From Myceligenerans salitolerans (GTDB lineage: Bacteria; Actinomycetota; Actinomycetes; Actinomycetales; Cellulomonadaceae): a DNA stretch of 32,828 nucleotides. The notes beneath the pieces were generated by a model. The model did not search any database and was not told where the DNA came from. It was given only the letters and a program-made list of their open reading frames with translations. Positions within the stretch are counted from its first letter, which is position 1. Each line of letters begins with the position of its first letter. The position numbers were made by a program, and so were the translations under genes. The stretch is from contig NZ_JAFMPK010000033.1 in assembly GCF_017349295.1 (NCBI RefSeq), positions 1-32,828 on the forward strand. The letters are read 5' to 3'. Of this stretch, positions 10,040 through 31,548 are shown piece by piece.

Positions 10040-10060
10040 CACCAACCTCAGGGAGCAACC

Positions 10061-13821: not shown

Positions 13822-13827
13822 ATGCTA
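13822..13827 (-). promoter_or_regulatory. Candidate -10 element (CGCCGGTAGCATT) for the acyltransferase gene
   Basis: On the minus strand the 13 bases CGCCGGTAGCATT at 13821-13833 contain TAGCAT. The identical 13-mer precedes the hybrid glycosyltransferase gene near 31590. The start codon is about 107 bases downstream. A clear -35 is not visible. On the plus strand TACCAT at 13852-13857 could serve the divergent glycosyltransferase gene starting at 13902. Confidence 0.35.
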
Positions 13828-13901
13828 CCGGCGCGGTCTCCGCGGCCCCGGTACCATGACACGTCGCCGCAGGACGTCACGATCGGATCAGAGAGTCATC
13901 C

Positions 13902-16155: not shown

Positions 16156-16230
16156 CCGGAGGTGGGCCCTCCGGAAGGCCGGAGCGCGAAGGGCGGATCC
16201 AGCGGGCCGGCCCGCTGGATCCGCCCTTCG
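16156..16230. terminator. Convergent terminator region with perfect 44-base palindrome
   Basis: A 7-bp hairpin (CCGGAGG/CCTCCGG, 16156-16174) is followed by a perfect 44-base palindrome at 16187-16230, with arms 16187-16208 and 16209-16230 and no spacer. It lies between the stop of the plus-strand glycosyltransferase (16148) and the stop of the minus-strand small membrane protein (16245). It can act in both directions. No T-tract follows. Confidence 0.85.
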
Positions 16231-16244
16231 GCGTCGGTGGCCCG

Positions 16245-16589
16245 TCAGCCCGGCGTCTGCGCGCGACGACGCTCGGCCTCTTCGAGGCGGGCGGCGTCCA
16301 GCGAGGACAGCAGACGACGCTCCATCAGCTCCAGACGCTTGTCGAGTGCACCCAGACGCGCCTGTACGTCACCGTTCGACGCGGCGACGCCGCTCGGCAC
16401 GCGAGCGGGCCGACCGCTGTTCCGTGCCGCGCGCCGGTCGGCCAGCACGACGGTCACGGCGAGCGCGGCGATCGCGAGCGCGAGCGCGGCCAGAGCCGGC
16501 TCGGGCAGACCGACGAGCGAAAACACCGCGGCGAGCAGACCGAGCCCTGCCGTGGCCACCGAGACCAGATGGAACTTCGACACCTTCAC
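16245..16589 (-). CDS. Small membrane protein with C-terminal coiled coil, unknown function
   Basis: A 114-residue protein I do not recognise. After a short N-terminus (VKVSKFHL) there are two hydrophobic helices, near residues 8-26 and 30-50, then a basic linker (DRRAARNSGRPARV) and an amphipathic C-terminal helix (RLGALDKRLELMERRLLSSLDAARLEEAERRR) with heptad-like spacing of Leu, suggesting a coiled coil. The start is GTG at 16589; a second GTG two codons later is also possible. It follows cysN by 46 bases on the same strand and may be cotranscribed with it, or have its own promoter. The topology suggests a membrane anchor that holds a partner through the coiled coil, but that is inference. 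Confidence 0.75.
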   Translation of the reverse strand: MKVSKFHLVSVATAGLGLLAAVFSLVGLPEPALAALALAIAALAVTVVLADRRAARNSGRPARVPSGVAASNGDVQARLGALDKRLELMERRLLSSLDAARLEEAERRRAQTPG

Positions 16590-16635
16590 CTGCTACCGCT
16601 CCTTGGTCGTGGAGATGCTGATCGGGAATCGCCGC

Positions 16636-17967
16636 TCAGTAGCCGTGGGCCACGGCGCCGATCATGCCCGCCGCGACCGTCCGGTTCGTGGACTCGTCCA
16701 CCAGGATGAACGAGCCGGTCTGCCGGTTGGTCTGGTACTGGTCGACGAACAGCGGCTGCGTGACACGCAGCTTGACCCGCGCGATCTCGTTGAGCTTGAT
16801 CTCGGTCACCTCTTCGTCCCGGTGCAGCGTGTTCACGTCCACCCGGTAGTTGATGCCCTTGACCATGGCCCGCGCCCACCGCGTGGTGTGCTTGATGGCG
16901 TACTTCTTGCCCTGCGTGAGCGAGGCGCTCTCGTCCATCCAGCAGATCTGGGCGTCGATGTCCTGCGTCACGGTCGGCGCGTTGTTCGGCCGGCAGATCA
17001 TGTCGCCGCGCGAGATGTCGATCTCGTCGGTCAGCCGGACGGTCACGGACATCGGCGGGTACGCCTCGTCGACCGGGCCGTCGGCGGTGTCGATTGACTC
17101 GATCGTCGACTCCAGGCCCGAGGGCAGGGTGAGAACCCTGTCGCCGGGCTTCATCACGCCGGACGCCACGGTGCCCGCGTAGCCGCGGTAGTCGCGCGCG
17201 TCGTTCTGCTGCGGCCGGATCACGTACTGCACGGGGAAGCGCACGTCCACCAGGTTGCGGTCGGAGGCCACGTGCAGGCGCTCGAGGTGGCTGAGCAGCG
17301 TGGTGCCCTCGTACCAGGGCATGTTCTCCGACCGGTCGACCACGTTGTCGCCCTTGAGGGCCGACACCGGGATGAAGGTCATGTCCGGCACCCGCAGACG
17401 GGCGGCGAACTCGGTGAACTCGTGACGGATGTTCTCGAAGACCTCCTCCGAGTAGTCCACGAGGTCCATCTTGTTCACGCACACCACCACGTGCGGCACG
17501 CCCAGCAGGGTGGCCAGGAACGTGTGGCGGCGCGACTGCTCCAGCACGCCCTTGCGCGCGTCGACCAGGATCAGCGCGACGTCGGCGGTCGACGCCCCGG
17601 TGACCATGTTGCGCGTGTACTGGATGTGCCCGGGCGTGTCCGCGATGATGAACTTGCGCTTCGGCGTGGCGAAGTAGCGGTACGCCACGTCGATGGTGAT
17701 GCCCTGCTCGCGCTCGGACCGCAGCCCGTCGGTCAGCAGCGCCAGGTCCGTGTAGTCGTTGCCGCGGTCCTTGCTGACCTGCTCCACCGACTCGAGCTGG
17801 TCCTCGAAGATCGTCTTGGAGTCGAACAGCAGACGCCCGATCAGCGTCGACTTCCCGTCGTCCACCGACCCCGCCGTCGCGAACCGCAGGAGGTCGGTGG
17901 AACCGGCCTCGTACACACCGGGCTCCTGCGCGACCGCGCTCCCGGTGCCCTCCGTCGCCGTCGTCAT
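16636..17967 (-). CDS. cysN: Sulfate adenylyltransferase subunit 1 (GTPase subunit)
   Basis: A 443-residue GTPase subunit of ATP sulfurylase. With CysD it converts ATP and sulfate to adenosine 5'-phosphosulfate (APS) plus pyrophosphate, driven by GTP hydrolysis, in the cytoplasm. Motifs: P-loop GSVDDGKST at 33-41, DTPGHIQYTRNM (G3), and VCVNKMDLVDY (G4), followed by the translation-factor-like beta-barrel domains. I place the start at the ATG at 17967 because it overlaps the cysD stop by one base (TGATG); a longer in-frame reading up to 18111 would run through cysD. There is no C-terminal APS kinase domain, unlike mycobacterial CysNC; kinase is encoded separately at 20882. Operon order is cysQ, cysD, cysN. 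Confidence 0.97.
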   Translation of the reverse strand: MTTATEGTGSAVAQEPGVYEAGSTDLLRFATAGSVDDGKSTLIGRLLFDSKTIFEDQLESVEQVSKDRGNDYTDLALLTDGLRSEREQGITIDVAYRYFATPKRKFIIADTPGHIQYTRNMVTGASTADVALILVDARKGVLEQSRRHTFLATLLGVPHVVVCVNKMDLVDYSEEVFENIRHEFTEFAARLRVPDMTFIPVSALKGDNVVDRSENMPWYEGTTLLSHLERLHVASDRNLVDVRFPVQYVIRPQQNDARDYRGYAGTVASGVMKPGDRVLTLPSGLESTIESIDTADGPVDEAYPPMSVTVRLTDEIDISRGDMICRPNNAPTVTQDIDAQICWMDESASLTQGKKYAIKHTTRWARAMVKGINYRVDVNTLHRDEEVTEIKLNEIARVKLRVTQPLFVDQYQTNRQTGSFILVDESTNRTVAAGMIGAVAHGY

Positions 17968-18869
17968 CAGAAGTAGCCTTCCTTCTTGCGGTCCTCCATG
18001 GCGGCCTCGCTCACCTTGTCGTCGCCGCGTGTCGCGCCGCGTTCGGTCAGGCGCACCGCCGCGACCTCCTCGACGACCTGACGCATGGTCGTCGCCTCGG
18101 ACTCGACGCACGCGGTCAGGTTCGCGTCCCCGACCGTGCGGTAGCGGGTGAGCCTGACCTCCGCCGTCTCGCCCTCCTTGAGCGGGGTGAACTCGTTGAC
18201 CTCGTACAGCATGCCTCCCCGGTTCACCACCTCGCGCTCGCGCGCGAGGTAGAGATCCGGAAGATCGATGTCCTCGGCCTCGATGTACGACCAGATGTCG
18301 AGCTCGGTCCAGTTCGACAGCGGGAAGACACGGATCGACTCACCCATGTGGACGCGGCCGTTGTACAGGTTCCAGATCTCCGGACGCTGGTTCTTCGGGT
18401 CCCACTGGCCGAAGTCGTCACGGAAGGAGAACACGCGCTCCTTGGCACGTGCCTTCTCCTCGTCGCGACGGCCGCCACCGAACGCGGCGTCGAAGCCGTG
18501 CTTCTCCAGCGCCTCGAGGAGAACCGGGGTCTGGATGCGGTTGCGCGAGCCGTTGGGCTCCTCCTGCACCAGACCGCGGTCGATGGCCTCGGGCACCGAC
18601 GCCACGACGAGCTGCACCCCGAGACGGGAGGCCCACCGGTCACGGCAGTCCAGCACGGTCTGGAAGTTCAGGCCGGTGTCCACGTGCAGGATCGGGAACG
18701 GGATACGCGCCGGCGCGAACGCCTTGGCCGCGAGGTGCAGCATGACGATGGAGTCCTTGCCGCCGGAGAACATCAGCACCGGGCGCTGCATCTCCGCGAC
18801 CACCTCGCGCATGATGTGGATGGCCTCGGCCTCCAGGCTGCGCAACTGGCTCAGGACGTGACTCTTCAC
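17967..18869 (-). CDS. cysD: Sulfate adenylyltransferase subunit 2
   Basis: A 300-residue catalytic subunit of ATP sulfurylase, of the PP-loop ATP pyrophosphatase superfamily. The PP-loop SGGKDS is at residues 35-40. Other family features are HVDTGLNFQTVLDCRDRW, AFGGGRRDEEKARAKERVFS and the C-terminal GDDKVSEAAMEDRKKEGYF, with length close to the family norm. The start is GTG at 18869, 3 bases after the cysQ stop, with GGAAGG about 10 bases upstream. The stop overlaps the cysN start by one base. The enzyme supplies APS for either cysteine synthesis or, after phosphorylation, sulfotransfer. No APS reductase (cysH) is seen in the window. Confidence 0.97.
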   Translation of the reverse strand: MKSHVLSQLRSLEAEAIHIMREVVAEMQRPVLMFSGGKDSIVMLHLAAKAFAPARIPFPILHVDTGLNFQTVLDCRDRWASRLGVQLVVASVPEAIDRGLVQEEPNGSRNRIQTPVLLEALEKHGFDAAFGGGRRDEEKARAKERVFSFRDDFGQWDPKNQRPEIWNLYNGRVHMGESIRVFPLSNWTELDIWSYIEAEDIDLPDLYLAREREVVNRGGMLYEVNEFTPLKEGETAEVRLTRYRTVGDANLTACVESEATTMRQVVEEVAAVRLTERGATRGDDKVSEAAMEDRKKEGYF

Positions 18870-18872
18870 TCC

Positions 18873-19754
18873 TCAAGCACCTTCCTTGCTCAACGATGCG
18901 ACGTTCGATTCGACCCCGACGGAGTCGAGCAGCTCGCGAAGCCGCGCAGCGAGTGCCGGGTGACACACGAACAGGTCGGGGAGCCAGGGACTCTCCCGGT
19001 TGTACTCGAGCGGCGACCCGTCGAGACGGGTGCACACGAGTCCGCGAGCCTGCGCCACCGCGACCGGTGCCGCCGAGTCCCACTCGTACTGCCCGCCGCC
19101 GTGGACGTAGGCGTCAACGGTACCCCCTGCGACGGAGATCACCTTGACGCCGGCCGAACCCATCGGCACGAGCTCGACGTCGCCGCGCTGTGCCAGGGTA
19201 GCCACGAACTCGGGCGGCCGGCTCCGGCTGGCCGCGATCCGGAGCGGACGCTCGCCCCGTAGCACGGCCTCCGCGTCCGCGGGACCACCGGGGCTCGTGT
19301 CGGCGGTGGTCAGGGTGGTGCCCCGGCCGGGCAGGCCCACGGCCCCGACCGTCAGGCCCGCACCGCGCTCCCAGAGCGCCACGTGCACGGCGAAGTCGTC
19401 ACGCCACTCGCCCTCGGGCCCGTCGGCCCCGGTGTGGCGCTCCGCGAACTCCCGGGTGCCGTCGAGCGGGTCGATGATCCACACACGATCTGCACGCGTG
19501 CGCGACACATCGTCCTTCGCTTCCTCGGACAGTGTCGCGTCCTGCGGCCGGGCCGCGGCGAGAGCGCGCGCCAGCCAGTCCTGAGCGGCGGCGTCACCGG
19601 CGTCCTTGAACGCCTTCTGGTCGAAGTCGCCGCCCGTGGCGTCGACGCCGGCGCGGAGTGCGAGGAGCACCTGCCCGGCTCCGTCGGCCAGGGCTTGCGC
19701 CAGGGCGGTGTCATCGAGCGACCCCGCGGGAAGGTGGGGTGAGGGCGAGTTCAT
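18873..19754 (-). CDS. cysQ: 3'(2'),5'-bisphosphate nucleotidase, CysQ/inositol monophosphatase family
   Basis: A 293-residue Mg-dependent phosphatase of the inositol monophosphatase superfamily. It has the metal-binding IIDPLDGTREF motif with Asp95 and Asp98, an upstream LSEEAKDD element supplying the family's acidic residue, and the C-terminal YEWDSAAPVAVAQARG. CysQ hydrolyses 3'-phosphoadenosine 5'-phosphate (PAP), the by-product of sulfotransferase or PAPS reductase reactions, and may also act on PAPS. I chose the ATG at 19754 (GGAG 4 bases upstream) because the family homology starts just after it; an ATG at 19853 would add 33 basic, low-complexity residues. First gene of the cysQDN operon; divergent from the TauE/SafE gene. 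Its presence argues that PAPS is consumed by this organism. Confidence 0.9.
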   Translation of the reverse strand: MNSPSPHLPAGSLDDTALAQALADGAGQVLLALRAGVDATGGDFDQKAFKDAGDAAAQDWLARALAAARPQDATLSEEAKDDVSRTRADRVWIIDPLDGTREFAERHTGADGPEGEWRDDFAVHVALWERGAGLTVGAVGLPGRGTTLTTADTSPGGPADAEAVLRGERPLRIAASRSRPPEFVATLAQRGDVELVPMGSAGVKVISVAGGTVDAYVHGGGQYEWDSAAPVAVAQARGLVCTRLDGSPLEYNRESPWLPDLFVCHPALAARLRELLDSVGVESNVASLSKEGA

Positions 19755-19780
19755 CAGTCTCCAGCCGGCGTCCAGGGGCG

Positions 19781-19888
19781 CAGTGACACCCCGGAGTCCG
19801 CGCGCGGAAAGCGAACGGGTGAAACCCCGAGGTCGCGCCGAGGCTACCATTCGACGATCGGCGCCGCTGATGGCACACTGATCGTCGA
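19781..19888. promoter_or_regulatory. Divergent control region between cysQDN and tauE-cysC
   Basis: The 162-base gap carries back-to-back -10-like hexamers that overlap: TAGCCT on the minus strand (19841-19846) and TACCAT on the plus strand (19845-19850). A 9-bp inverted repeat, TCGACGATC (19851-19859) and GATCGTCGA (19880-19888), covers the expected plus-strand start site. Two similar 18-base elements (19817-19834 and 19781-19798, 13 of 18 identical, core GTGAnACCCCG) are 36 bases apart in the cysQ leader. These look like operator sites, which would allow joint sulfur-responsive control; no regulator gene is in the window. Confidence 0.4.
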
Positions 19889-19916
19889 GATCTCCGGCCG
19901 GAAAGGTAGGAAACGA

Positions 19917-20885
19917 ATGGTCGACCTCCCCCTTGTCCTGGGCGGCCTGCTCGTCGGCTTCGTCGTGGGCCTGACCGGAATGGGCGGCGGCGCGCTGATG
20001 ACGCCGATGCTGATCTTCGTCTTCCGGGTGGACCCGCTCGTGGCGGTCTCCTCCGACGTCGTGGCCAGTCTCTTCATGAAGCCCGCCGGCGCCTTCGTGC
20101 ACCTGCGCCGCCGCACCGTCAACCTGCCTCTCGTGGGCTGGCTGTGCTTGGGCTCCGTCCCGGCAGCCTTCTCCGGCGCCCTCCTGATCAAGGTCATCCC
20201 GTTCGGGGACCAGCTCGACACCGTGCTGCGGTACGTTCTCGGCGTCGCACTGCTGCTCGCCTCGTTCGGGCTGGTGGTACGAGCCGTCCTGCAGATGGTG
20301 CGCACGCGCTCCGCGCTCGGTGAGGGTCCCGTGGCGCCGAGCGCGCCCAGCCTGGTGGTACGGCCGCTCCCGACGGTCCTGCTCGGCGCGGTCGCCGGAC
20401 TCATGGTGGGCGTCACCTCGGTGGGTGCCGGCTCCATCATCATCGTCATCCTGCTGCTCATGTACCCGGCCCTCAAGGCCTCCCAGGTGGTCGGCACGGA
20501 TCTGGTGCAGGCCGTCCCCCTGGTCGCCGCCGCATCCCTCGGTCACCTCCTGTACGGCGACTTCTCGCTGGGACTGACGGTCTCGCTCCTCATCGGTGCG
20601 ATCCCCGGTGCCTGGTTCGGCGCACACGTCTCGAGCCGCGCACCGGGCGGCATCATCCGCCGCGCCCTCGCGATCCTGCTCCTCGCCTCCGCGCTCAAGC
20701 TGCTGGGTGCGCCCCTCTGGCTCGTTCTCGCCGCGGCCGGCGGTGCGCTGGTGGGCGGCAACCTGGTATGGATCTGGGTGAAGCGACGCTTCGGCGCGCC
20801 GGCCCTCCCGGCGCCCTCACCCAGCACGACGCCGTCCCCTCCGGACGAGCCCGCCCGCATCGACGAATCGAGCCGCCGCACATGA
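19917..20885 (+). CDS. TauE/SafE family sulfite/sulfonate transporter
   Basis: A 322-residue membrane protein of the TauE/SafE (DUF81) family with about eight helices. Family markers are [21 protein letters not shown] near residues 18-38 and the second-half repeat [26 protein letters not shown], which reflects internal duplication. [18 protein letters not shown] and [17 protein letters not shown] are the matching second elements. Relatives export sulfite, sulfoacetate or other organosulfur anions, and some may import sulfate; direction cannot be decided here. AGGAAA precedes the ATG by about 4 bases. Its stop overlaps the cysC start (ATGA), so the two are translationally coupled, which ties transport to sulfate activation. 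The C-terminal 25 residues are Pro/Ser-rich and cytoplasmic. Confidence 0.92.
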
Positions 20886-22081
20886 CCGACTCCCCCGCCC
20901 GTGTCCTGACCGACGACGAGCTCGACGTCCTCGAGCTCGCACTCGGCGGCGCCGTTCCGCGCCTGCCGTTCGTGACGGGGCCCGTCACGCTCACGGACAC
21001 CGAGAACACACCGCTCGCCGAGGTGGGCGCCGACGGCTCGCCGACGCCGGTCAAGCCGATCGCGGCAGCTCTCGGACCGCAGTGGGACGAGCGCCTGCGC
21101 GTCCCGGCCCGGGACGTCGCCGCCGCCGTCGCCCCGGGGACGACGGCGGTCTGGACGGACGAGGTGCCGACGGTGGAGGACGCCGCCACGATCGCTCGCG
21201 TGGCGGAACGCGGCGGCGTCCTCCTTCTCGTCCCGGCGTCCCGGCGCACCGCTCCGGGCACGGTCGGCGCGGCGGGGCTCACCCGGGCGGTGGTCGCCCT
21301 CGCGGAGGAGATCCCGGGAAGACCTCGGGTCGTCGTCGTCCCGTACCCGCACCGTTCCACGACGGCGGTGGCGCCCGTCGACGTGACACCTGCCGACGTG
21401 GCGACGGCCTACGGCGCGGAGCGTCTGCTCGTGCCGGGCGAGGAGCGCTCGCCGGAGACACGCGCCGCCCTCGCGGACCTCCCGCGGGCGCACGCACGAG
21501 CCGTCGCCGCGCTCTACCCCGCCGCCTCGGCGCGCGAGGTGGAGCGTGCCGCCGCGGCCGGGCACGGCCGTGGCACCGTGGTCTTCTTCACCGGCCTGTC
21601 GGGCTCGGGCAAGTCGACGGTCGCCCGCGCCCTGGCCGCCGAGCTGGACGACGACGGCCTCGGGACCACCCTGCTCGACGGTGACGCCGTGCGGCACCAC
21701 CTCTCCAAGGGCCTGGGCTTCGATCGCGAGTCGCGGGAGACCAACGTGGAGCGGATCGGCTACGTCGCCTCGCTCGTCGCCAAGCACGGTGGCATCGCCG
21801 TGGCGGCACCCATCGCGCCCTTCGCGGCGAGCCGGGCGACGGTCCGCGGCCTGGCCGAGGCCGCGGGAGCACGCTTCCTGCTGGTGCACATCAGCACGCC
21901 CCTGGAAGTGTGCGAGGCGCGCGACCGCAAGGGCCTGTACGCCAAGGCCCGGGCCGGCGAGATCCCGGACTTCACGGGCATCAGCTCGCCCTACGAGACG
22001 CCCGACGACGCCGATCTGACGATCGACACGAGCGAGGTCTCGGTCGAGGACGCGGTGAACCAGGTCCGCGCCGCCCTCTGA
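20882..22081 (+). CDS. cysC: Adenylyl-sulfate kinase with ATP-sulfurylase-like N-terminal domain
   Basis: A 399-residue protein whose C-terminal half is an APS kinase, making PAPS from APS and ATP. Walker [10 protein letters not shown] is at 238-246; [25 protein letters not shown], then [29 protein letters not shown] are characteristic. The position of the Ser that is phosphorylated in E. coli CysC (ISP) reads IAP here, a change also seen in some bifunctional enzymes. Residues 1-225 resemble the N-terminal PUA-like part of single-chain ATP sulfurylase ([28 protein letters not shown]), but I find no QxRN or HxxH catalytic motifs, so this part is probably not active. ATGA overlap with the TauE/SafE gene. 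Standard CysC is about 200 residues, so this is double length. Confidence 0.93.
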
Positions 22082-22099: not shown

Positions 22100-23023
22100 T
22101 CAGGCCTCCGGGGGGCGCGTCCCGTCCAGGGCGAAGCGGGTCACCTCACGCCAGCCGCCGAGCTTGTCGCGCGACCTCACGGCGAAGGCCAGGCGGACCG
22201 CCGGCGCCTCCCACCCGAAGACCCGGTTGAACACGACCGCGCGGGCGTGGGCGTCGCGGCCGCCCCAGCGGGAACCCGAGCTCTCCACCGGATGGATGCC
22301 GTACACGAACGGGACGGCGTCGCCGGCGAGGCCCGCGCGCAGGAGGTCGGCGATGAGGATGTACTCGTCGCCGAGGTACAGCTCCGCGCCGGCCCCGAAG
22401 CGCTCGTCGAACCAGACGTCGTGCGCGCGCAGCTGGGAGACGTCCACGAGCATCTCGTAGGTGGCGGCCTTCGCGGAGTTGAACAGCGTCAGCGGGGTGA
22501 TCTCGGGCGCGTAGCGCTTGCGGGGCTCGCCGTCGGCCCCCATGCCGCGGCCGAGGGCGATCGCCTTGCCGGTGGCACGCAGGTGCTCCGCGCCGCGACG
22601 CACGCCCTCCAGGTCGACGCGCACGTCGTCGTCGCAGAACAGCAGGTAGCGCCCGCGGGCGTGGCGCAGCGACGCGTTGCGGCTCCTCGCCACGCCACGT
22701 CCGGGCACGCGCACCAGACGCACGCCGTCCGGCGGCGAGAAGCCCTCCGGCAGGTCGCCCTGGACGCACAGGAGCAGGTCGAGGTCGTCGGAGCGTTCCG
22801 GCCAGACGACGTCGCCGGCACGCTCGGCGAGCGACGAGTAGGCGATCGTGAGCAGCGGGACCGCGGCGCCGTCGTCGGGCACCCACCCGGCCGATGCCTC
22901 GCCGTTCGACACGGGCCCCGCGGGTCCGGCGGGACCGCGGCGGACATGCCCGCGCCCGGCAGGCACGTCGTTCTCGGGCACCCGGTTCCCGGGCGCCGGC
23001 TCCCCGGACGTCTCAGCCATCAT
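22100..23023 (-). CDS. Family-2 glycosyltransferase
   Basis: A 307-residue glycosyltransferase. The first 50 residues are Gly/Pro-rich and look disordered. The GT-A domain begins near 56 (VPLLTIAYSSLAERA), continues with DLDLLLCVQGDLP, ARSRNASLRHARGRYLLF, and the metal-binding acidic cluster Asp131-133 in FCDDDVRVD. An ELYLGDEYILIADLLRAG segment fits the acceptor-side acidic motif. No membrane helix is present. The start is ATG at 23023 or the adjacent ATG at 23020; the ribosome site is weak, and the gene begins only 17 bases after the upstream hybrid gene stops, so translation is likely coupled. It is the last gene of the surface-polysaccharide run and faces cysC. Confidence 0.85.
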   Translation of the reverse strand: MMAETSGEPAPGNRVPENDVPAGRGHVRRGPAGPAGPVSNGEASAGWVPDDGAAVPLLTIAYSSLAERAGDVVWPERSDDLDLLLCVQGDLPEGFSPPDGVRLVRVPGRGVARSRNASLRHARGRYLLFCDDDVRVDLEGVRRGAEHLRATGKAIALGRGMGADGEPRKRYAPEITPLTLFNSAKAATYEMLVDVSQLRAHDVWFDERFGAGAELYLGDEYILIADLLRAGLAGDAVPFVYGIHPVESSGSRWGGRDAHARAVVFNRVFGWEAPAVRLAFAVRSRDKLGGWREVTRFALDGTRPPEA

Positions 23024-23040
23024 GACGATCGCCGTCGGGC

Positions 23041-24930
23041 TCAGCGCGTGGCCCGCGCGGCCCAGGTGTCGACCGCGGTGCGCACCGCGTCGGCCACCTC
23101 GTCCAGCTTCGCCTCGCTCACCCGCTCGGTCACCACGAGGTCCGACAGGTTCGCGGCGTTCAGGTCGAGCGGCACGCTCACCGGCTCGAACGTACGGCTC
23201 AGGCCGGCGCCCAGCGAGTAGTCGCGGTACTTGACGCCGTTGCCGTGCACGGTGCCCTCCATGCCCTCGAACACCACGAGCGCGCACGGGATGCCGTAGG
23301 AGTGGCACGCGATCATCACGTGCATCGCGCTGGTGACGACGGCGTCGTACTCGTTCAGGCGCCCGACGAACGCCTCGATCTCCTCGGGCGAGGACATGAG
23401 GACCGACAGCTCGTCCCAGCCGTCCGGCAGCACGACCGGGAGGTTCGCGTGCGTGAAGTGGCGCACGAGGGCGACGCGGCCGTTGGTCTCCCCACGCTCG
23501 TGCGGGTAGATCCGTGACAGCAGCAGACCCGGGTCGCCGAACGAGGTGACCTCCGGACCACCGGACTCCGTGACCCGCGCGGCGGTGATCGGTCCGCGCA
23601 GCGACACGTAGGTGGCCTTCGGCTCGAGCGAGATGTCGTCACTGGAGATGCCGGTGCCGACGACGACCGACTTCGGCTTGACGAACCGGCCGATCGAGCC
23701 CACCGACAGGAGGTGCGGACGGCTCACCGGCGCGGCCGGCTCCAGGAAGCGCAGCGGGCGCCCGCTGTAGTGGGCGAGCACCAGCGGCGACAGCCAGTCG
23801 CCGAAGTTGCCCGGGTAGGGGCGCGGCCACCAGGCCAGCGGGATCGGCGTGCCCTCGCCGGTCGTGCGGAAGTGGACGAACGTGTCGGCGGCGCGCTTGG
23901 CGTCGCGCTCGGCGTCGTCGACGGGGCCCAGCTGCTCCAGCCGCGACCACAGCTCGGCGACCTTGTCGGCCCTGCCCGCCTGACCCTCGCGGACCAGCCG
24001 GTTCGCGATCCGGATGCGGCGGCCGGATCCGCTGAAGCCCTCCTTGAGGCCGTGCGTCAGCACGTGCGTGACACCGACCCGGTCGGCCACGAGGCGCAGC
24101 GAGTTGCGCGCGTCCCCCGGCAGCTTGCGCTCGACCTTCTTCAGCACGTCGAGCACGCGGCGCCGCATCGGCACGCCGGCCGCCGCCGAGCCTCCGGGCA
24201 GACCAGCACGGCCGTGCTGGACGACCTTGCCCTTGAACTCCTCGACGTTGCCGCTCGAACCGAACGAGAAGAACGGCGTCACGTCCGTGATCTCCGGCTT
24301 CGCCTTGGAGAACACGGCGACGGACGGGATGATCTGGAACGACAGCGACTCGGCGTTCTTGCGCCAGGACTCCTCGAAGAAGTAGTCGTCGGTCGCCTTG
24401 ATGTCCCGGCCCGCGGCCTCCGCCGCGGCGGCGTCGGCCACGAAGCGGCGCGCGGCCGGGCTCGTGTTGACGCCCCAGAAGGCCGGCTCCCAGAACCGCG
24501 TGCGGTTCGCGTACCCGATCGACAGCGGCGACGAGAACCCACGCTGGAAACCGATGATGTCGGCGGAGAAGTCCGCGATCAGCGGCGGGAACGACGACAG
24601 CGAGCAGTCGACGTCGATCCAGTACACCTTCTTGTCCGGGTGCTTCTCGCACACCTCGGCCAGGAACGGCACCTTTCTGCGTGTCACGTCCGCCCAGTCG
24701 AGTCCCTCGGGGATCTCGATCTCCCGCAGGTCGTGCGCGACGCCCAGCCGGTCCAGCGCGGCGCGGAGCCGCTCACCGTGCCCGCGGTAGTAGTCGTCCG
24801 CCGTGTAGAAGGAGCAGACGATCACGTCGTCGCGGGGCGCCTCGTGGCGGGGCTCGGCCAACTCGGTCTCCGTCGTGGTGTCGCTCTCGACCACGGCATT
24901 CTGGTCGGGCGTGCTGATGTCGGTCGTCAT
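23041..24930 (-). CDS. Hybrid protein: N-terminal DxD glycosyltransferase-like domain plus polysaccharide pyruvyltransferase domain
   Basis: A 629-residue two-domain protein. Residues 38-265 look like a GT-A-fold nucleotide-sugar transferase: DDVIVCSFYTADDYYRGHG, VPFLAEVCEKHPDKKVYW, then the DxD motif Asp106-Val-Asp108 (IDVDCSL) and FWGVNTSPAARRFV. Residues 265-360 are basic and helical. Residues 370-629 match the polysaccharide pyruvyltransferase family: NFGDWLSPLVLAHYSG, VVVGTGISSDD, SLRGPITAARV, SFGDPGLLLS and a final SAMHVMIACHSYGIPCALV. Such domains add ketal-linked pyruvate from phosphoenolpyruvate to sugars, although some members do other phosphate-linked transfers. ATG at 24930 has GGAAAG close upstream. 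It has its own structured leader. A fusion of these two domains is unusual. Confidence 0.85.
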   Translation of the reverse strand: MTTDISTPDQNAVVESDTTTETELAEPRHEAPRDDVIVCSFYTADDYYRGHGERLRAALDRLGVAHDLREIEIPEGLDWADVTRRKVPFLAEVCEKHPDKKVYWIDVDCSLSSFPPLIADFSADIIGFQRGFSSPLSIGYANRTRFWEPAFWGVNTSPAARRFVADAAAAEAAGRDIKATDDYFFEESWRKNAESLSFQIIPSVAVFSKAKPEITDVTPFFSFGSSGNVEEFKGKVVQHGRAGLPGGSAAAGVPMRRRVLDVLKKVERKLPGDARNSLRLVADRVGVTHVLTHGLKEGFSGSGRRIRIANRLVREGQAGRADKVAELWSRLEQLGPVDDAERDAKRAADTFVHFRTTGEGTPIPLAWWPRPYPGNFGDWLSPLVLAHYSGRPLRFLEPAAPVSRPHLLSVGSIGRFVKPKSVVVGTGISSDDISLEPKATYVSLRGPITAARVTESGGPEVTSFGDPGLLLSRIYPHERGETNGRVALVRHFTHANLPVVLPDGWDELSVLMSSPEEIEAFVGRLNEYDAVVTSAMHVMIACHSYGIPCALVVFEGMEGTVHGNGVKYRDYSLGAGLSRTFEPVSVPLDLNAANLSDLVVTERVSEAKLDEVADAVRTAVDTWAARATR

Positions 24931-24968
24931 ACAACTTTCCGTGGACTCACCGCGGATGGTGCGGCTCT

Positions 24969-25030
24969 GGGGTGGGCTCCTCGGGCCCACCCCCGCATAC
25001 GCGGGGATGCGCCGTCCGCCCACGAGGGTA
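24969..25030 (-). promoter_or_regulatory. Structured leader with two overlapping hairpins and candidate -10
   Basis: On the minus strand TACCCT (25025-25030) is a plausible -10 for the hybrid gene at 24930. Just downstream lie hairpin B (stem CCCCGC/GCGGGG, 24991-24996 with 25001-25006, 4-base loop) and hairpin A (9-bp stem, 24969-24977 with 24985-24993, 7-base loop). They share bases 24991-24993 and cannot both form fully. This could be a terminator for the upstream operon or an attenuator. The whole gap from 24931 to 25119 has no gene. Confidence 0.4.
24986..25014 (+). repeat. Solitary sequence resembling a type I-E CRISPR repeat
   Basis: Read on the plus strand, the 29 bases have the geometry of a type I-E repeat: 5 bases, 6-bp stem CCCCGC, 4-base loop, GCGGGG, then ATGCGCCG, compared with CCCCGC-loop-GCGGGG-ATAAACCG in E. 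coli. Only one copy is present; no second copy lies at about 61-base spacing on either side, and no cas gene is in the window. It may be only a GC-rich hairpin. Confidence 0.3.
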
Positions 25031-25119: not shown

Positions 25120-26157
25120 TCAGGAGTGATGCTCCGGGCCGCGGAGGAAGCCCGCGCCCCACGACAGGTGCATGACCGCGAGGACCCCCGGCAGCAGCGC
25201 ACGCGCGCGGAGCGGCAGGCGCCGGCCCTCGCGGAGCGACCCCGCCACCACGCCCAGGACGTAAGCTCCCGGAACCGCGAGGCCCCACAGCAGCCACGGC
25301 GTGGTGAACGCGCCCACCACGCCCGCGGCGAGACCCGCCACGATGCCGCACACGGCGGCCGGAGGGGCCAGGTAGCGCACGCTCGCGGTGTCGGGGTACT
25401 GCCGCATGACGTGGTTGCGCCAGCGTCCGGAGCGGAAGAACTGGGTGACCAGCTGCCGCCAGGTACCACGGGGCCGGTAGCCGACACGAAGCGCGGGATC
25501 GAACCAGACCGTGTGCCCCGCCTGCCGGAGCCGGTAGTTCAGCTCCCAGTCCTGGGCCCGCAGGTACGCCTCGTCGTACAACCCGACGGCCTCCAGGGCA
25601 TCCCGGCGGAACGCGCCGAGGTACACCGAGTCGGCCGGCCCGGCGCGTCCGCCCGTGTGGAATGGGGCCGAGCCGATGCCGAGCGGTGAGCTCATCGCCA
25701 CCGCGACGGCCTTCTCGAAGGCCGTACGGCCCTCGGGCACCATGATTCCGCCGACGTTCGCCGCGCCCGAGGACAACAGGACGCGCACCACCTGTGTCAC
25801 GTAGCCGGACTCGAGGTGGCTGTGACCGTCCACGCGCACGAGCAGGTCGTGCCGCGCGGCACGGATGGCCGCGTTGAGCCCGGCCGGCGTCCACCCGGCG
25901 GGATTGTCCACGACGGTGAGCCGCGGCTCCTCCGCGGCCAGCTTCCCGGCGATCTCGGCCGTCCGGTCGTGGCTCGGCCCGACGGCGAGCACCACCTCGA
26001 ACGGACCGGCGTAGTCCTGCGCGAGGATCCGCTCGACGGCTTCCGCCAGGTCGCGCTCCTCGTTGCGGACGGTGAGGAACACGGAGACGCCGGGCGCCGG
26101 CCCGGAGGTCTCGGGCACAGTCCCGGAAACGCCGGACGCATCAGACATGCGGGACAT
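25120..26157 (-). CDS. Membrane-associated family-2 glycosyltransferase (ExoA-like)
   Basis: A 345-residue protein with a GT-A domain followed by membrane helices, the layout of succinoglycan ExoA-type enzymes. SVFLTVRNEERDLAEAVERIL starts the catalytic domain; the DxD-equivalent is Asp110 in RVDGHSH, and the general-base motif is QDWELNYRLRQAG (202-214), close to the ED/QxxRW pattern. Two to three hydrophobic helices occupy about 255-335. The enzyme probably adds a sugar to a lipid-linked intermediate at the inner face of the membrane. Start is ATG at 26157, one base after the stop of the exporter ATPase gene, with another ATG three codons in. Translation coupling to the exporter suggests both serve one polymer. 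Confidence 0.88.
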   Translation of the reverse strand: MSRMSDASGVSGTVPETSGPAPGVSVFLTVRNEERDLAEAVERILAQDYAGPFEVVLAVGPSHDRTAEIAGKLAAEEPRLTVVDNPAGWTPAGLNAAIRAARHDLLVRVDGHSHLESGYVTQVVRVLLSSGAANVGGIMVPEGRTAFEKAVAVAMSSPLGIGSAPFHTGGRAGPADSVYLGAFRRDALEAVGLYDEAYLRAQDWELNYRLRQAGHTVWFDPALRVGYRPRGTWRQLVTQFFRSGRWRNHVMRQYPDTASVRYLAPPAAVCGIVAGLAAGVVGAFTTPWLLWGLAVPGAYVLGVVAGSLREGRRLPLRARALLPGVLAVMHLSWGAGFLRGPEHHS

Positions 26158-26158
26158 G

Positions 26159-27751
26159 CTAGCCCTCGTCGGTCCGGTCGCGCGGGTCGGTCACCCTGAT
26201 GACCGGGATCGCCTCGGTGTCCGGAGCGGGCTCGGCCGATCGCGGCTTCCGCTGCCCCACCCAGGACCTCCGGGACCGGCCGAGCGCCGCCTCCGAGCGG
26301 GACAGCGGCCTGCCCAGGTCCGGGAAGCCGGTCTCCGACGTCGACGACGGCCAGCGCGGCACACGAGGAACGGCCGGCTCCACGACGGGCCGCGTCTCAG
26401 GAGCCGCCAGCGGGTCGGTGTCGCCACCCCCGGTGCGGTCGGAATACCCGCCGCTCGCCCGGTCGGACCGCACGTCCTCCCACGTGAGCCTGCGCAGCGT
26501 GCCGGTCGACGGGCGCGCGTCGTCCTCGGTCACCCGGCGGAGCGCACCGGTCGCCGGACGGGAACTCTCCGGGGAGACCCGGCGCAGCGAGCCGGTGGCC
26601 GGGCGACCCTCCGTGTTCACCGAGCGCAGTGTTCCCGTGGCCGGGCGCACCTGGTCCTGGGACACCTGGCGGAGCGAACCGGTCACCGGACGCAGGTCCT
26701 CCTGGGTCACCCTGCGCAGCGCGCCGGTCGCCGGGCGGCCCGCCTCGGCCGGCCGCGCATGCTGCTTGTGCTGCCCGGCGACCTTCACGGGGCGCTTGCC
26801 GTTCTGCTTGCCCTTGCCGGCTCCCCTGCCCTTGCCACCGCCCTTGCGGCGACCGCCGGGACCGATCTTCCCGCCGGCCTTGGCCTGACCGTTCTTGCCC
26901 TTGATGTACTTCTGGTACTCGTCGCACACCGTGTCGACATCGCCGTCCATGCGCACCTGGCCCTGGTCGAGCCAGATGACACGCGTGCACATCGCCCGCA
27001 CCGAGGCGATGGAGTGGCTCACGAGGAACACCGTGCCGGCCTCCTCGCGGATCTTCTCGATGCGCTCCTTGCTCTTCTTCCGGAACGCGGCGTCACCGGT
27101 GGCCAGCGCCTCGTCCACCATGAGGATGTCGGGCGTGACGATCGTCGAGATCGCGAAGCGCAGACGCGCGGCCATGCCGGAGGAATAGGCGTTCATCGGG
27201 AGGTAGACGAAGTCGCCGAGGTCGGCGAAGTCCACGATCTCCGGCACCTTCGCCCGGGCCTCGGCCTCGGACATGCCCAGCGCGAGACCACCGATCGTGA
27301 TGTTCCGCTCCCCGGACAGATCCTTCAGCAGGGCCGCGTTGACGCCCAGCAGGGACGGCTCGCCGGAGAGGTACACGCGGCCCTTCGACGGGGGGTGGAG
27401 CCCCGCGACCGCGCGCAGCAGAGTCGACTTGCCCGAACCGTTCGTCCCGACGATGCCGATCGCCTCGCCGTGACGCGCCACGAACGAGACGCCGCGTACG
27501 GCGCGCACCTCCGTGATGGCGCCCACGCTCTGCCGGGCGCGGCCGACCATCCGGTTGAACAGGGACCGGTTGGCGCCGGAGACGGGCTTGCCGCCGAACA
27601 CCCGGTAGGTGACGTGCACGTCGTCCACGATGACCGACGGGGCGCCGAGCTCCGTGCGGACCGCGCGGTCCGGGAGATCCTCGGCGTCGATCTCGAAGTC
27701 GATCTCCTCGGGTTCCCCCTTCGGGGACCTGCTGGGCACGTTGTCAGTCAC
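26159..27751 (-). CDS. Polysaccharide/teichoic acid ABC exporter, ATP-binding protein (Wzt/TagH-like) with repeat tail
   Basis: A 530-residue ABC ATPase. The nucleotide-binding domain covers about 38-275: VIVDDVHVTYRVF, Walker A GTNGSGKST at 102-110, the YSSGMAARLRFA signature variant typical of Wzt/TagH proteins, and Walker B ILMVDEAL. Residues 278-335 are Lys/Gly-rich (GGRRKGGGKGRGAGKGK). Residues 339-423 hold six copies of RPxTGxLRR(V/L)(T/S), then an acidic-to-basic disordered tail. Typical Wzt tails are a glycan-binding beta-sandwich; that is absent. The GTG start overlaps the permease stop by 8 bases. The pair resembles the galactan exporter of mycobacteria and teichoic acid exporters of Firmicutes, so lipid-linked glycan export is the likely job. 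Confidence 0.93.
   Translation of the reverse strand: MTDNVPSRSPKGEPEEIDFEIDAEDLPDRAVRTELGAPSVIVDDVHVTYRVFGGKPVSGANRSLFNRMVGRARQSVGAITEVRAVRGVSFVARHGEAIGIVGTNGSGKSTLLRAVAGLHPPSKGRVYLSGEPSLLGVNAALLKDLSGERNITIGGLALGMSEAEARAKVPEIVDFADLGDFVYLPMNAYSSGMAARLRFAISTIVTPDILMVDEALATGDAAFRKKSKERIEKIREEAGTVFLVSHSIASVRAMCTRVIWLDQGQVRMDGDVDTVCDEYQKYIKGKNGQAKAGGKIGPGGRRKGGGKGRGAGKGKQNGKRPVKVAGQHKQHARPAEAGRPATGALRRVTQEDLRPVTGSLRQVSQDQVRPATGTLRSVNTEGRPATGSLRRVSPESSRPATGALRRVTEDDARPSTGTLRRLTWEDVRSDRASGGYSDRTGGGDTDPLAAPETRPVVEPAVPRVPRWPSSTSETGFPDLGRPLSRSEAALGRSRRSWVGQRKPRSAEPAPDTEAIPVIRVTDPRDRTDEG
26483..26737 (-). repeat. Six in-frame 33-base repeats coding RPxTGxLRRVT
   Basis: Copies lie at 26705-26737, 26660-26692, 26615-26647, 26573-26605, 26528-26560 and 26483-26515, with periods of 45, 45, 42, 45 and 45 bases. 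Protein copies start at residues 339, 354, 369, 383, 398 and 413. Invariant positions are Arg, Pro, Thr, Gly, Leu and Arg; the last position is Thr, Ser or Asn. Spacers are acidic (QED, EDD, WED). The repeats differ at third codon positions, so the protein sequence has been kept by selection or the duplications are old. Confidence 0.95.
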
Positions 27752-28694
27752 GCCCGTACCTTTCCTCGGCGGCCCAGAAGTAGATGAAGCCTCCCACCAG
27801 GATGAACAACGCCCATCCGCCGGCCCAGGCCCAGAGCCAGGGGTCGTAGGGAATGGTCGCGTCGTCCATCATGATCATCCGGAAGAGCCGCAGGAACACC
27901 GCGACCGGCTGGTACTCCAGGATCGCGCGGACGATCGTCGACGTCTGATCGGTGCCGTCCACGAAACGTGTGATCGGGAACAGCACGCCGGACCCGTACA
28001 TCAGCAGGCGCGTGATGAACGGCAGCACCTGCAGCAGGTCGGGCTTGCCGTAGCCGTACCGGGCCATGAAGAAGCTGATACCGGTGTTGAGCAGCGTGAC
28101 GAGCGCGAGAGCGGGAACGATCTCCAGCCAGTGCCAGGTCAGCGTGATGACCTTCAGGTCCTTGTCGGTGACGTATCCCAGGTATCCGGACGCGAGCGTG
28201 AACAGGCACATCACACCCACCGTCGGGATGAACAGCGTCAGGCTGGTGATGACGTTGGCCAGCGGCAGCACGGCCCGCGGGAACCGCAGGGACCGCACGA
28301 GCTGCATGTTGCCGTCGATCGCGCGGGCGCCGCTGCTGATGGCGTTGTCCATGAGGCGGAAGATGAAGACGCCGATCACGATGAACGCCACGACGTTCTC
28401 CACGCCGCGGTCCGCGCCGAGGATGAAACCGAAGATCAGCGTGTAGATGATCGCGTTCAGCGTCGGGTTGAGCGTCGCCCACATCTGCCCCAGGAACGAC
28501 CCCTGGTGCTTCGCGTACGCCTTGGACGTGGAGAAGACGCGTATGAAGTCACGGCGCGCCCAGAGCTGCTTCAGGTAGGTCCCCATCCGGGGACGGACCC
28601 CGGCCTCCTCGAGGCCGTGCTGCTGGGCGAGCGCCCTCGCCTCGGCCGAAGACAGCGGCTCGGATGCCGCCGCTCGATTCTCGGTGACGGTCAC
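27744..28694 (-). CDS. Polysaccharide/teichoic acid ABC exporter permease (Wzm/TagG-like)
   Basis: A protein of about 316 residues with six membrane helices of the ABC-2 exporter type. After a soluble N-terminus (EPLSSAEARALAQQHGLEE) comes an interface helix with YLKQLWARRDFIRVFSTSKAYAKHQGSFLGQMW, then NPTLNAIIYTLIFGFILG; the RSLRFPRAVLPLANVI loop is typical of Wzm. The start is uncertain: GTG at 28694 has GAGGAG and AAGGAG upstream (short and long spacing), while an earlier GTG at 28733 has no clear ribosome site. The stop overlaps the ATPase gene by 8 bases, as expected for a transporter pair. Together they should move an undecaprenyl-linked polymer across the membrane. Confidence 0.92.
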   Translation of the reverse strand: MTVTENRAAASEPLSSAEARALAQQHGLEEAGVRPRMGTYLKQLWARRDFIRVFSTSKAYAKHQGSFLGQMWATLNPTLNAIIYTLIFGFILGADRGVENVVAFIVIGVFIFRLMDNAISSGARAIDGNMQLVRSLRFPRAVLPLANVITSLTLFIPTVGVMCLFTLASGYLGYVTDKDLKVITLTWHWLEIVPALALVTLLNTGISFFMARYGYGKPDLLQVLPFITRLLMYGSGVLFPITRFVDGTDQTSTIVRAILEYQPVAVFLRLFRMIMMDDATIPYDPWLWAWAGGWALFILVGGFIYFWAAEERYGRD

Positions 28695-28755
28695 GGACTC
28701 CTCGTTCTCCTTCGTGCCGGGGCGTCCGGGCACACAGGGATCTTGATCGGGCCTC

Positions 28756-28812: not shown

Positions 28813-31548
28813 TCAGTGCCCCTCGCCGGCGGCCGGGACGCCGCCGGATCCGGCGGGAGCGCCCGCGGCCGCGACCCGCTCCGCGAGCCTCGTCTCGGCC
28901 GCCTGCCAGTGTTCCTGGCAGGTCGAGTACTCGGCGCTCCACGGCTTGCGGTGCCCGGCCCAGTGGATCAGCTTGGCCTCGCGCACGTCCTCCTGCGCCG
29001 GGAACGCGTTCCACGCCGGGTCCATCACGACACGTGTGTTCCCGGCGTAGGCGTTGAGCAACTGCTGGTCGTTGAGCCCGTACATGCCGGCCCACGGCAG
29101 GTAGTTCTCGGCGAACCCGTCGGCGCGCATCCGGTTCAGGTTGAGCACCATGATGCCGGCGTTGAAGGCGACGTAGTCGTAGGTCTGGTGCGCCGACATC
29201 CGCCGCAGGAACTCGTTCGCCACCGCCGCACCGCCCGGCATCTTCTTGGTTGTGACCCACGTGTTGCGGAACCCGGACAGGAAGTACCGCCCGGCGGCGT
29301 CGCGAGCGGCGAGCGGCGCGTCCCCGAGCTCGAGGTCGTAGAGCTCGGCGATGTCGGTGAGCAGGACGGCGTCGATGTCGTGGTAGACCACCTTGTCCAG
29401 CTCCGGCAGCAGGTACGGCAGCAGCAGACGGTCCATGGTGGCCACGGTGATGTGCGAGAGCATGCCGCTGATCGCCCCGTACTCGATGCCGTCGCACGGC
29501 AGCCAGTGGATCTCCAGCTCGGGGAACAGCGCGTTGAACGCGTCGATGTCCTCCTGCGAGTGGTCGCGGCACTGCACGTAGAGCACGGTGGGCCGCTCGG
29601 CGTGGTCGGCCAGCGCGGTCGCGACCACCTTGGCCTGCTCCTTGAGGTTCCCGTCCATGGCGATCGACACGTGCACGGGCGCGCCGTCGCGCTCGACCAG
29701 CGCGGGCCGGACCTGCTCGCGGGACCGCACCCGGGCGACGACGTCGTCCAGGTCGAAGGGCAGCGGGTCGTTGGTTCCCGGCGCCGCGAGCCGTCGCCGC
29801 GCCTCGGCCACCTCCGGCTCGCACGCCTCGGCCCACGCCGCGTAGACCTCCTCCGGCTTCTTCCCGGCAAGGATCTCGGCGAACGCGATGTCAAGGAGGC
29901 GGGTGATGCGCTCCTGCATCGCGCGCCGGTCGGCCTCGGTCGCGTCCAGCAGCCCGTTGAAGCGGATGTCGGCGGCGCGCCTGGGCCGGAACTCGACATC
30001 GGCGCCGATCGCCCACGTGGGCAGGTAGCAGTGCAGGCGGGAGGTGACGATGCGGGAGTACTCGGTCTGGTAGCCCTCCAGCAGCCGGACGGCCTCGTCG
30101 ATGTTCTCGGCCAGGGTGCGGTCCCGGACGGCGTCGTACTCCTGCTTGATCGTGGCGGCGCCGCGCGGGGCCGGGGTGTCCACGTACACGGCGGGCTTGC
30201 CCGCACCGGCGCGCCTGCGCTCGAAGAGGCCGTTGACGGTGGTGGTCAGGCAGCCGGAGAAGAACGCCGGGACTCCTGCGGCGAGCAGCAGATAGACCGT
30301 GTTCCAGTCGCGGCAGCCGACCGGTCCGTGCGCCCGGAGGTACTCGACGGCCTCGGGGGTGAGCATCTCCAGCCGGTTCACGTGGAACGAGACGAGGATG
30401 GGCTTGAGGTTCGGGTGGAACGGGAAGTCCGGGATCAGGCCGAACGCCGAGTTCATGTACCAGCCGAACCCGAGGGTCCAGGTGTTCTCCGGGATCGGGT
30501 CGGTGGACGAGGCGTCGCGGTTCATCTCGACGAGGTGGACGGTGCGCTCGGGCCCGCCGTCGACACGGTGCTCGGCCGGGACACGGGCCGCGAGCCGCCC
30601 GAAGCTCCGGGCCAGGTCCTCCTGCCCGGTGAACGTCAGCCCGGTCCGCCGCACCAGGTGCGACGACGCCGCGATGGTCTGCACGTAGTCGCCGATGTTC
30701 TGGGTGGTCATCTTCCGGTCGGGCGTGCGGTAGCCCATGACGGCGAACGGCACGGCACCGTCGGCCACCGGCGCGGGCTCGGCCGGCTCGGCCTCCCGCC
30801 GCACCCACTCCGCCAGCCAGTCCAGGCGCCCGGCCGCCGCCGAGCCCTCCGGCGCCTCGGCGGCGAGCCGCTCGTACAGGCGCGCGGCGGTCTTGCCGCG
30901 ATGCGTGGCGAGCGTCGCCTCCAGCACGCCGAGCGCGCCGTCCACGTCGAGCGCGGGCTGCGCGAGGACGACGTCGGCCAGGGCGTCGAGCGCCGCCGGG
31001 TCCTTGCGCGCGGCGACCCGCGCGTACTCGCGGGCGGCCCACTTCGCGGCGGTCTCCAGCGGGACCTCACCGAACCGGGTCCAGGCCAGGTTGTCGAAGC
31101 TGTAGTACTCGGCGGCCACCGCCTCACCGAGCGTGCCGGCGACGCGCGTCGCGTCGTCGCGCATGAGGGACTGGTTGAGGCTGCGCATCGAGACGTCGTC
31201 CCGTGCCGCGATGAGCCCTCGCACGCCCTCCACGACCGCGGCCTCCAGCGGCAGGCCGCGCTCCAGGGCACCAGCCATGTCGGCCTTGGCGACGGTGGCC
31301 CGCGCGCGCCGGCGGTTCTCCATCTCCTCCTCACGCGTCAGGGTGAGGGGCGGCACGACGCCGGTGGCGCGGCCGGCGTGCAGGTTGGTCTCCCCACCGA
31401 GGATCGCGACGATCCGGTCGTAGGCGAGCACGTACCGGCGCAGCCGCCGCACCTTCTCCGCCGGGCCCGTCCCGGAGAGGCGGGAGAGCGCGGGGCGCGC
31501 GACGGACGCCACGGTCCGGCGCATTCGTTGGGAGAAGGATCCGCTCAT
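28813..31548 (-). CDS. Three-part hybrid: helical N-domain, pyruvyltransferase-like domain, GT8 glycosyltransferase domain
   Basis: A 911-residue protein. Residues 1-265 are mostly helical and Ala/Arg-rich, unrecognised. Residues 271-600 look like a polysaccharide-pyruvyltransferase fold: TTQNIGDYVQTIAASSHLV, VHLVEMNRDASS, GPVGCRDWNTVYLLLAAGVP, FSGCLTTT and, near 505, SRLHCYLPTWAIG. Residues 620-890 form a family-8 glycosyltransferase: VHVSIAMDGNLKEQAKVVATAL, DRLLLPYLLPELDKVVYHDIDAVLL with the metal-binding Asp724-Ile-Asp726, YVAFNAGIMVLNLNRMR, NDQQLLNAY and the C-terminal IHWAGHRKPW. No membrane helix. ATG has GGAAAG 6 bases upstream. The domain order is reversed relative to the 629-residue hybrid of the same locus. 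Donor sugars are probably hexoses, as for GT8 enzymes, but this is not certain. Confidence 0.85.
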   Translation of the reverse strand: MSGSFSQRMRRTVASVARPALSRLSGTGPAEKVRRLRRYVLAYDRIVAILGGETNLHAGRATGVVPPLTLTREEEMENRRRARATVAKADMAGALERGLPLEAAVVEGVRGLIAARDDVSMRSLNQSLMRDDATRVAGTLGEAVAAEYYSFDNLAWTRFGEVPLETAAKWAAREYARVAARKDPAALDALADVVLAQPALDVDGALGVLEATLATHRGKTAARLYERLAAEAPEGSAAAGRLDWLAEWVRREAEPAEPAPVADGAVPFAVMGYRTPDRKMTTQNIGDYVQTIAASSHLVRRTGLTFTGQEDLARSFGRLAARVPAEHRVDGGPERTVHLVEMNRDASSTDPIPENTWTLGFGWYMNSAFGLIPDFPFHPNLKPILVSFHVNRLEMLTPEAVEYLRAHGPVGCRDWNTVYLLLAAGVPAFFSGCLTTTVNGLFERRRAGAGKPAVYVDTPAPRGAATIKQEYDAVRDRTLAENIDEAVRLLEGYQTEYSRIVTSRLHCYLPTWAIGADVEFRPRRAADIRFNGLLDATEADRRAMQERITRLLDIAFAEILAGKKPEEVYAAWAEACEPEVAEARRRLAAPGTNDPLPFDLDDVVARVRSREQVRPALVERDGAPVHVSIAMDGNLKEQAKVVATALADHAERPTVLYVQCRDHSQEDIDAFNALFPELEIHWLPCDGIEYGAISGMLSHITVATMDRLLLPYLLPELDKVVYHDIDAVLLTDIAELYDLELGDAPLAARDAAGRYFLSGFRNTWVTTKKMPGGAAVANEFLRRMSAHQTYDYVAFNAGIMVLNLNRMRADGFAENYLPWAGMYGLNDQQLLNAYAGNTRVVMDPAWNAFPAQEDVREAKLIHWAGHRKPWSAEYSTCQEHWQAAETRLAERVAAAGAPAGSGGVPAAGEGH

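Follow-up and report, generated by a model that had tools for sequence, protein, structure and literature searches.

A predicted disordered repeat tail with conserved candidate phospho-threonines on a glycan-exporter ATPase of Myceligenerans

Results

Locus and family of the exporter ATPase

The window (the whole stretch of Myceligenerans salitolerans DNA analysed, 32,828 nucleotides) encodes a TagH/Wzt-like ABC exporter ATPase with a long C-terminal tail, set amongst glycosyltransferase and related genes on the same strand (Table 1). The gene for its cognate permease, for which both the Pfam and the NCBIfam match lie below cut-off, overlaps the start of the ATPase gene by 8 bp, and Myceligenerans pegani TRM65318 has the same locus.

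Table 1. Positions of the exporter genes, their neighbours and the segments of the ATPase within the window
Feature	Positions	Strand	Basis
Polysaccharide pyruvyl transferase-like protein, same locus	23041..25023	(-)	Pfam
GT2 glycosyltransferase, immediately downstream of ATPase	25120..26157	(-)	Pfam
TagH/Wzt-like ABC exporter ATPase with long C-terminal tail, 530 aa	26159..27751	(-)	ORF, GTG start; Pfam; NCBIfam
N-terminus and nucleotide-binding domain, residues 1-284	26900..27751	(-)	AlphaFold2 pLDDT; family matches
Gly/Lys-rich linker, residues 285-338	26738..26899	(-)	Composition: 15 K+R, 1 D+E, 0 S/T
Array of six units [RH]P-x-T-G-x-L-R-x-[VLI]-[TS]-x-[DE]..., residues 339-427	26471..26737	(-)	
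Unit 1, RPATGALRRVTQEDL, from residue 339	26693..26737	(-)	
Unit 2, RPVTGSLRQVSQDQV, from residue 354	26648..26692	(-)	
Unit 3, RPATGTLRSVNTEG, 14 residues, from residue 369	26606..26647	(-)	
Unit 4, RPATGSLRRVSPESS, from residue 383	26561..26605	(-)	
Unit 5, RPATGALRRVTEDDA, from residue 398	26516..26560	(-)	
Unit 6, RPSTGTLRRLTWEDV, from residue 413	26471..26515	(-)	
Post-array tail, residues 428-530 (103 residues)	26162..26470	(-)	Three-species alignment; context score
Cognate permease, ABC-2 type, Wzm/TagG-like	27744..28733	(-)	Pfam ABC2_membrane, E 2.8e-4; NCBIfam galactan_ABC_perm, E 9e-12
911-aa glycosyltransferase, GT8 at C-terminus, same locus	28813..31548	(-)	Pfam

Beside the glycan locus, at window positions 16636-22081, lie genes for CysN, CysD, a CysQ-like phosphatase, a TauE-type exporter and an APS kinase, named from their Pfam domains; all five are also found in genomes G001 and G003, and four in G002, where CysN falls beyond the stretch read. 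These sulfate-assimilation genes would supply PAPS, which suggests that the product may be a sulfated surface glycan; Pfam named no sulfotransferase among the window proteins scanned. An acyltransferase-3 fused to an SGNH domain and a large GT2-domain protein, encoded at 11642-16148, are possible further glycan genes. In G003 the sulfate-assimilation genes share 74-97% identity with those of the window and stand beside a different exporter (ATPase 58%, permease 45%, one GT2 protein 53%), and counterparts of the GT8, pyruvyl-transferase, GT2_a and GT2_c genes were absent from the 19 kb examined. Judged by this comparison with the window (locus L081), most of the exporter and glycosyltransferase block has been exchanged in a manner resembling a serotype switch.

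Pfam assigns the ATPase to ABC_tran (PF00005; 63 bits against a cut-off of 25, residues 86-216), and a Walker A motif (GTNGSGKST) and a signature-like motif (YSSGM) are readable in it. The best NCBIfam models are those of teichoic acid and galactan exporter ATPases, all with scores below cut-off. The closest match of the nucleotide-binding domain (NBD) is to the TagH/TarH models PRK13545 and PRK13546, and the ATPase resembles TagH/TarH also in that its gene adjoins an ABC-2-type permease and glycosyltransferases; however, it scores far under the curated equivalog cut-offs (211 against 538 and 189 against 320 bits), and the model match ends at residue 289-292, leaving the tail uncovered. The NBD is likewise similar to the galactan exporter ATPase Wzt/RfbE (NF050108), a model of 244 residues that ends with the NBD and to which the protein scores 175 bits against a cut-off of 400.

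A sequence-only reading of this locus had ended the NBD near residue 275; in the AlphaFold2 model, with mean pLDDT of 72-95 per ten-residue block from residue 81 to 290, the domain instead extends to about residue 284-287. That reading had also remarked on the missing glycan-binding Wzt domain. No C-terminal beta-sandwich sugar-binding domain is found in the ATPase by Pfam at E<=0.01, ABC_tran being the sole match above cut-off, so the absence stands; it is not, however, special to this protein, since 27 short-tailed relatives have no room for such a domain either. Like the O-antigen Wzt proteins, the ATPase is a glycan-exporter subunit with a C-terminal extension, but theirs contains a carbohydrate-binding domain whereas that described here is predicted to be disordered. 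We therefore place it outside the sugar-binding Wzt type.

Architecture of the tail

Between a Gly/Lys-rich linker and a post-array segment, the tail holds six motif copies at residues 339, 354, 369, 383, 398 and 413, exactly as first reported, spaced by 15, 15, 14, 15 and 15 residues. The interval originally given for them, 26483-26737, covers precisely the six 11-residue cores; inclusion of the last spacer extends it to the array limits in Table 1. P-x-T-G-x-L-R occurs six times, whereas no shuffled sequence, out of 20000 made from the tail and 20000 from the array, contained it more than once. At the DNA level Tandem Repeats Finder identifies both a 45-bp unit (5.5 copies, 67% matches) and a higher-order block of 132 bp (1.9 copies, 78% matches), so the array probably grew in part by doubling of a three-unit block; its self-identity reaches 0.46 for a lag of 15 and 0.58 for one of 44, whereas lags of 10-14 and 16-18 give 0.01-0.19.

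In the AlphaFold2 model, which was built on 11 aligned sequences, pLDDT stays under 50 over residues 288-521; only one other of those sequences possesses the tail, so that low confidence here is support for disorder rather than proof. On this basis the 246-residue tail is predicted to be intrinsically disordered. RPATG resembles the LPxTG sortase signal; a sortase signal was nevertheless rejected, as the protein is an ATPase subunit and no hydrophobic stretch follows the motif.

Distribution of the array

A 220-residue tail query matched 3 of 221 family genomes, all Myceligenerans, whereas the NBD was matched at E<=1e-60 in 100 of the 221, paralogues included. The repeats are thus not confined to this strain, three species having the array, with 6 units in the window, 5 and an RPAASS remnant in G002, and 6 in M. 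pegani; the remnant was left out of the unit count and the identical G001 and L033 tails were counted once, giving 17 units in total. Neither the family nor the genus search found the tail in the fourth Myceligenerans genome, G003. Amongst the best 30 NBD relatives by score, the three tail-bearing proteins are accompanied by 27 that end 3-47 residues past the domain. Several relatives terminate in a short basic stretch similar to the Gly/Lys linker; lower-scoring relatives and paralogues can have tails of up to ~90 residues, quite different in sequence and none with the array. Relatives lacking the RPxTGxLR core, which the sequence-only reading had named as evidence against a docking or phospho-regulated tail, therefore do exist, both outside the genus and in one of the four Myceligenerans genomes.

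Searches further afield returned weak matches. With an array profile, 28 of 396 order genomes matched at E<=0.01, the organism's own genome and G002 strongly and the rest at E 3e-4 to 0.01; in the weak loci translated in six frames (18 of the 27 weak order matches and 7 weak loci from the genus search) no more than one TGxLR appeared in the best frame. Two weak matches in 396 phylum genomes (E 2e-5 and 5e-5) came from a short frame and from a protein whose repeat is unrelated. Four plasmid records (E 5e-4 to 5e-3) and one phage (5e-3), all from unrelated hosts, were taken as low-complexity matches, and four solved structures matched the array at E 0.02-0.6. Amongst all loci collected, only the three tail-bearing genomes contain two P-x-T-G-x-L-R motifs within 60 residues of one frame. 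Across the genomes sampled, then, the array appears lineage-restricted, with no homologous array outside Myceligenerans, although a very diverged one could be missed because the tail and array searches of family, order and phylum genomes scored 12-13 candidates per genome. The titles and abstract openings retrieved for Myceligenerans, Wzt/Wzm, TagH and ABC/FHA literature contained no description of the tail.

Paralogous exporter ATPases of the family form a second class (L152-L181; e.g. L032:1909-3024), whose conserved tail differs and reads RYRKWAWA...EAKxIIEDAFAER-[EQD]-T-x-V..., with RH[VA]R at its end. The pattern [DE]T.[VIL] matched 21 of its 30 loci, in L181 at another site, and the nine misses read QTxV by eye; Thr lies in [EDQ]TxV in 29 of the 30. 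This tail resembles the GarA phospho-motif.

Conservation and selection

Across the 17 units, P2, T4, G5 and R8 are invariant, L7 is kept in 16 and R1 in 15; position 13 is Asp or Glu in every unit, and position 11 has 10 T, 5 S, 1 N and 1 P. Codon differences were counted between the window, G002 and M. pegani (33-36 core and 21-23 spacer codons), the core being defined as R1, P2, T4, G5, L7 and R8, the columns invariant across the window's own six units. For the three pairs the core gave dN/dS of 0.066, 0.050 and 0.024 at dS of 0.48-0.66, similar to the NBD (0.017, 0.065, 0.074), compared with 0.39, 0.26 and 0.18 for positions 3, 6, 9, 10 and 11, and 0.47, 0.42 and 0.49 for the spacers; each of the three pairs shows the order core < middle < spacer, on small counts. 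Values for the linker (0.13, 0.28, 0.32) and the post-array part (0.19, 0.22, 0.26) were also obtained. The G002-M. pegani pair, which is independent of the choice of columns, shows 15 synonymous and 1 nonsynonymous core difference over 33 codons. Between species, strong purifying selection acts on the motif core whilst the spacers drift.

These values bear directly on the possibility that the array is a functionless product of neutral tandem expansion by replication slippage. The varying unit number, the duplicated 132-bp block and the restriction to three species would all fit such an origin; the low core dN/dS relative to the spacers indicates that the repeat is kept at the protein level, beyond slippage, and already disfavours neutrality, which we regard as very improbable.

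A second possibility is that the tail is a basic segment that binds polyanions or membrane, its linker and Arg cores keeping the ATPase close to lipid headgroups, nucleic acid or an anionic glycan without any specific partner. The composition of the linker (Table 1) and the short basic tails of several relatives agree with this, but the array itself is no more than mildly basic (16 K+R, 10 D+E), the acidic position 13 is retained throughout, and basicity in general would give no reason for T4 and G5 to be invariant; we judge this explanation improbable.

Candidate phosphorylation sites

Phospho-regulation of the tail had been suggested from the likeness of its terminal RRV-T/S to a basophilic kinase context. 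Our results are compatible with phospho-regulation, but probably not with the terminal residue as its main site, as this is T or S in 15 of 17 units and N in one of the six window copies. Because it is invariant in 17/17, the Thr of TG is probably the better candidate. M. tuberculosis Thr sites whose phosphorylation falls on PknA depletion are reported to be enriched for acidic residues at -1, -3 to -6 and +7, for Pro at -1 and +2, for Leu or Val at +3 and for Lys or Arg at +4 (PMC7164672). A review lists, for M. tuberculosis, T-X-(X/V)-phi-(P/R)-I preceded by acidic residues and, for S. coelicolor, pT-x-E (PMC6888350). Thr with Leu at +3 and Arg at +4 is represented in these two descriptions of bacterial motifs, and a basophilic RRxT is not. 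T4 is followed by Leu at +3 and Arg at +4, its acidic residues within the array lying only at -5/-6; it has no acidic +7 (position 11 being T/S), and its +5 residue is Arg, Lys, Gln or Ser, not the Ile of the review motif. A published kinase context for Thr therefore does occur in the tail, with each published motif matched only in part, by descriptors that are mainly mycobacterial and in a search made after T-x-x-L had already been noticed.

A context score (an acidic residue at -1 or -3 to -6, L/V/I at +3, and either K/R/P at +4 or Pro at -1/+2), which additionally accepts Ile at +3 and Pro at +4, selected 9 of 20 tail Thr and 13 of 536 background Thr from the NBD and 19 other window proteins (GT2_a at 22100-23308 and the unclear ORFs at 6867-7928, 7844-10339 and 16162-17097 being left out of the background). 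Simpler scores were enriched too, the +3 and +4 criteria alone selecting 7/20 and 25/536. Six scoring repeats are not six independent matches and to that extent count against the result as evidence; with the repeats collapsed to one each, 4 of 12 tail Thr qualify (p = 2.7e-4). In the post-array part alone 3 of 8 Thr qualify, a number reached in 25 of 20000 composition shuffles: T453 (PETRPV) and T512 (PDTEAIPV) are conserved in the three species, and T445 is not. Enrichment of T11-x-[DE] was not significant (5/20 against 59/536, p = 0.07).

FHA domains can prefer Leu at pT+3, the residue found in the repeat. Descriptions of Rad53 FHA1 name Asp, Ile and Thr at this position, and that of Rv2623 names Val for its T237, which counts against the match. 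The Pkinase search, confined to the organism's own genome, gave 11 matches over cut-off; this genome also has 5 FHA matches, and on contig C19 two of each kind lie within ~8 kb. The tail-less G003 has FHA matches too, seven in number, and presence of the tail therefore goes with no particular FHA partner.

Discussion

The tail is real, selected and lineage-restricted, a variant of a regulated or docked glycan exporter. That it is a disordered, multivalent linear-motif tail is likely, and the docking tail originally proposed is supported as a class by predicted disorder, repeat conservation and purifying selection on the core.

The reading that we prefer, at a probability of roughly 0.4, is that threonines of the tail are phosphorylated by a PknA/PknB-type kinase and that the strip is then bound by FHA proteins, the exporter being clustered, placed or switched as a result. 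The disordered strip on the cytoplasmic exporter ATPase would offer a partner five or six motif copies, ~15 residues apart; the kinase would phosphorylate the invariant Thr of each P-x-T-G-x-L-R, together with T453 and T512; FHA-domain proteins would bind the phosphorylated strip; and exporters would then cluster, take their place at growth sites, or switch with envelope growth. We infer phosphorylation, FHA binding, clustering or placement, and the effect on export. Phospho-Thr reading leaves the invariant P2 and G5 unexplained.

Conservation of P2, G5, L7 and R8 besides the Thr, selection on the core and nearly constant spacing would suit a phosphorylation-independent form of multivalent docking, in which the RPxTGxLR core is itself the ligand, the repeats raise avidity, and a site of synthesis or growth is coupled to export. 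The partner might be a glycosyltransferase of the locus, a DivIVA/SepIVA-type coiled coil or another exporter copy; a precedent is the coiled-coil protein GpsB, which is reported to recruit the exporter TarG in S. aureus (PMC9241681). No partner was found, however, and a tie to the GT8 enzyme was rejected: homologues of the 911-residue protein occur in 31/221 family genomes and the tail in 3, so the enzyme does not need the tail. A GpsB arginine ligand was likewise rejected, the tail matching neither the arginine motif nor the spacing of such ligands. We consider docking of this kind plausible, at rather less than even odds and nearly as probable as the phospho-Thr reading.

For the phospho-Thr reading, a precedent is Rv1747 of M. 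tuberculosis, an ABC transporter reported to be controlled and clustered through phospho-Thr and FHA domains (PMC5549992, PMC9312465). Both are envelope ABC transporters with a disordered cytoplasmic region, albeit predicted here; the FHA domains of Rv1747, however, lie in its own chain, whilst Pfam at E<=0.01 detects none within the exporter ATPase, which contains only candidate phospho-sites. The ATPase for this reason falls outside the Rv1747 type. Mycobacterial CwlM offers a second comparison, having a conserved C-terminal tail with a Thr that is phosphorylated by PknB, and acting on envelope synthesis (PMC4946905); the tail Thr here are candidates by comparison, and CwlM is no exporter, nor is a repeat array mentioned for its tail (PMC4946905). 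A more specific version, in which the array is a six-fold phospho-threonine barcode whose graded phosphorylation enables FHA proteins acting in trans to gate or cluster the exporter, as a modular in-trans counterpart of Rv1747 recently acquired in one genus with a particular glycan locus, seems to us rather unlikely.

In Gram-positive bacteria outside a few models, how the export of wall and capsule glycans is coupled to growth and kinase signalling is, to our knowledge, mostly open. A repeat tail with countable conserved Thr sites makes a compact test case, in which one could vary how many sites there are and follow export, clustering and localisation. Should the tail prove to be a phosphorylation-independent docking strip, it would still point to a partner, one that could be fished out with a single peptide.
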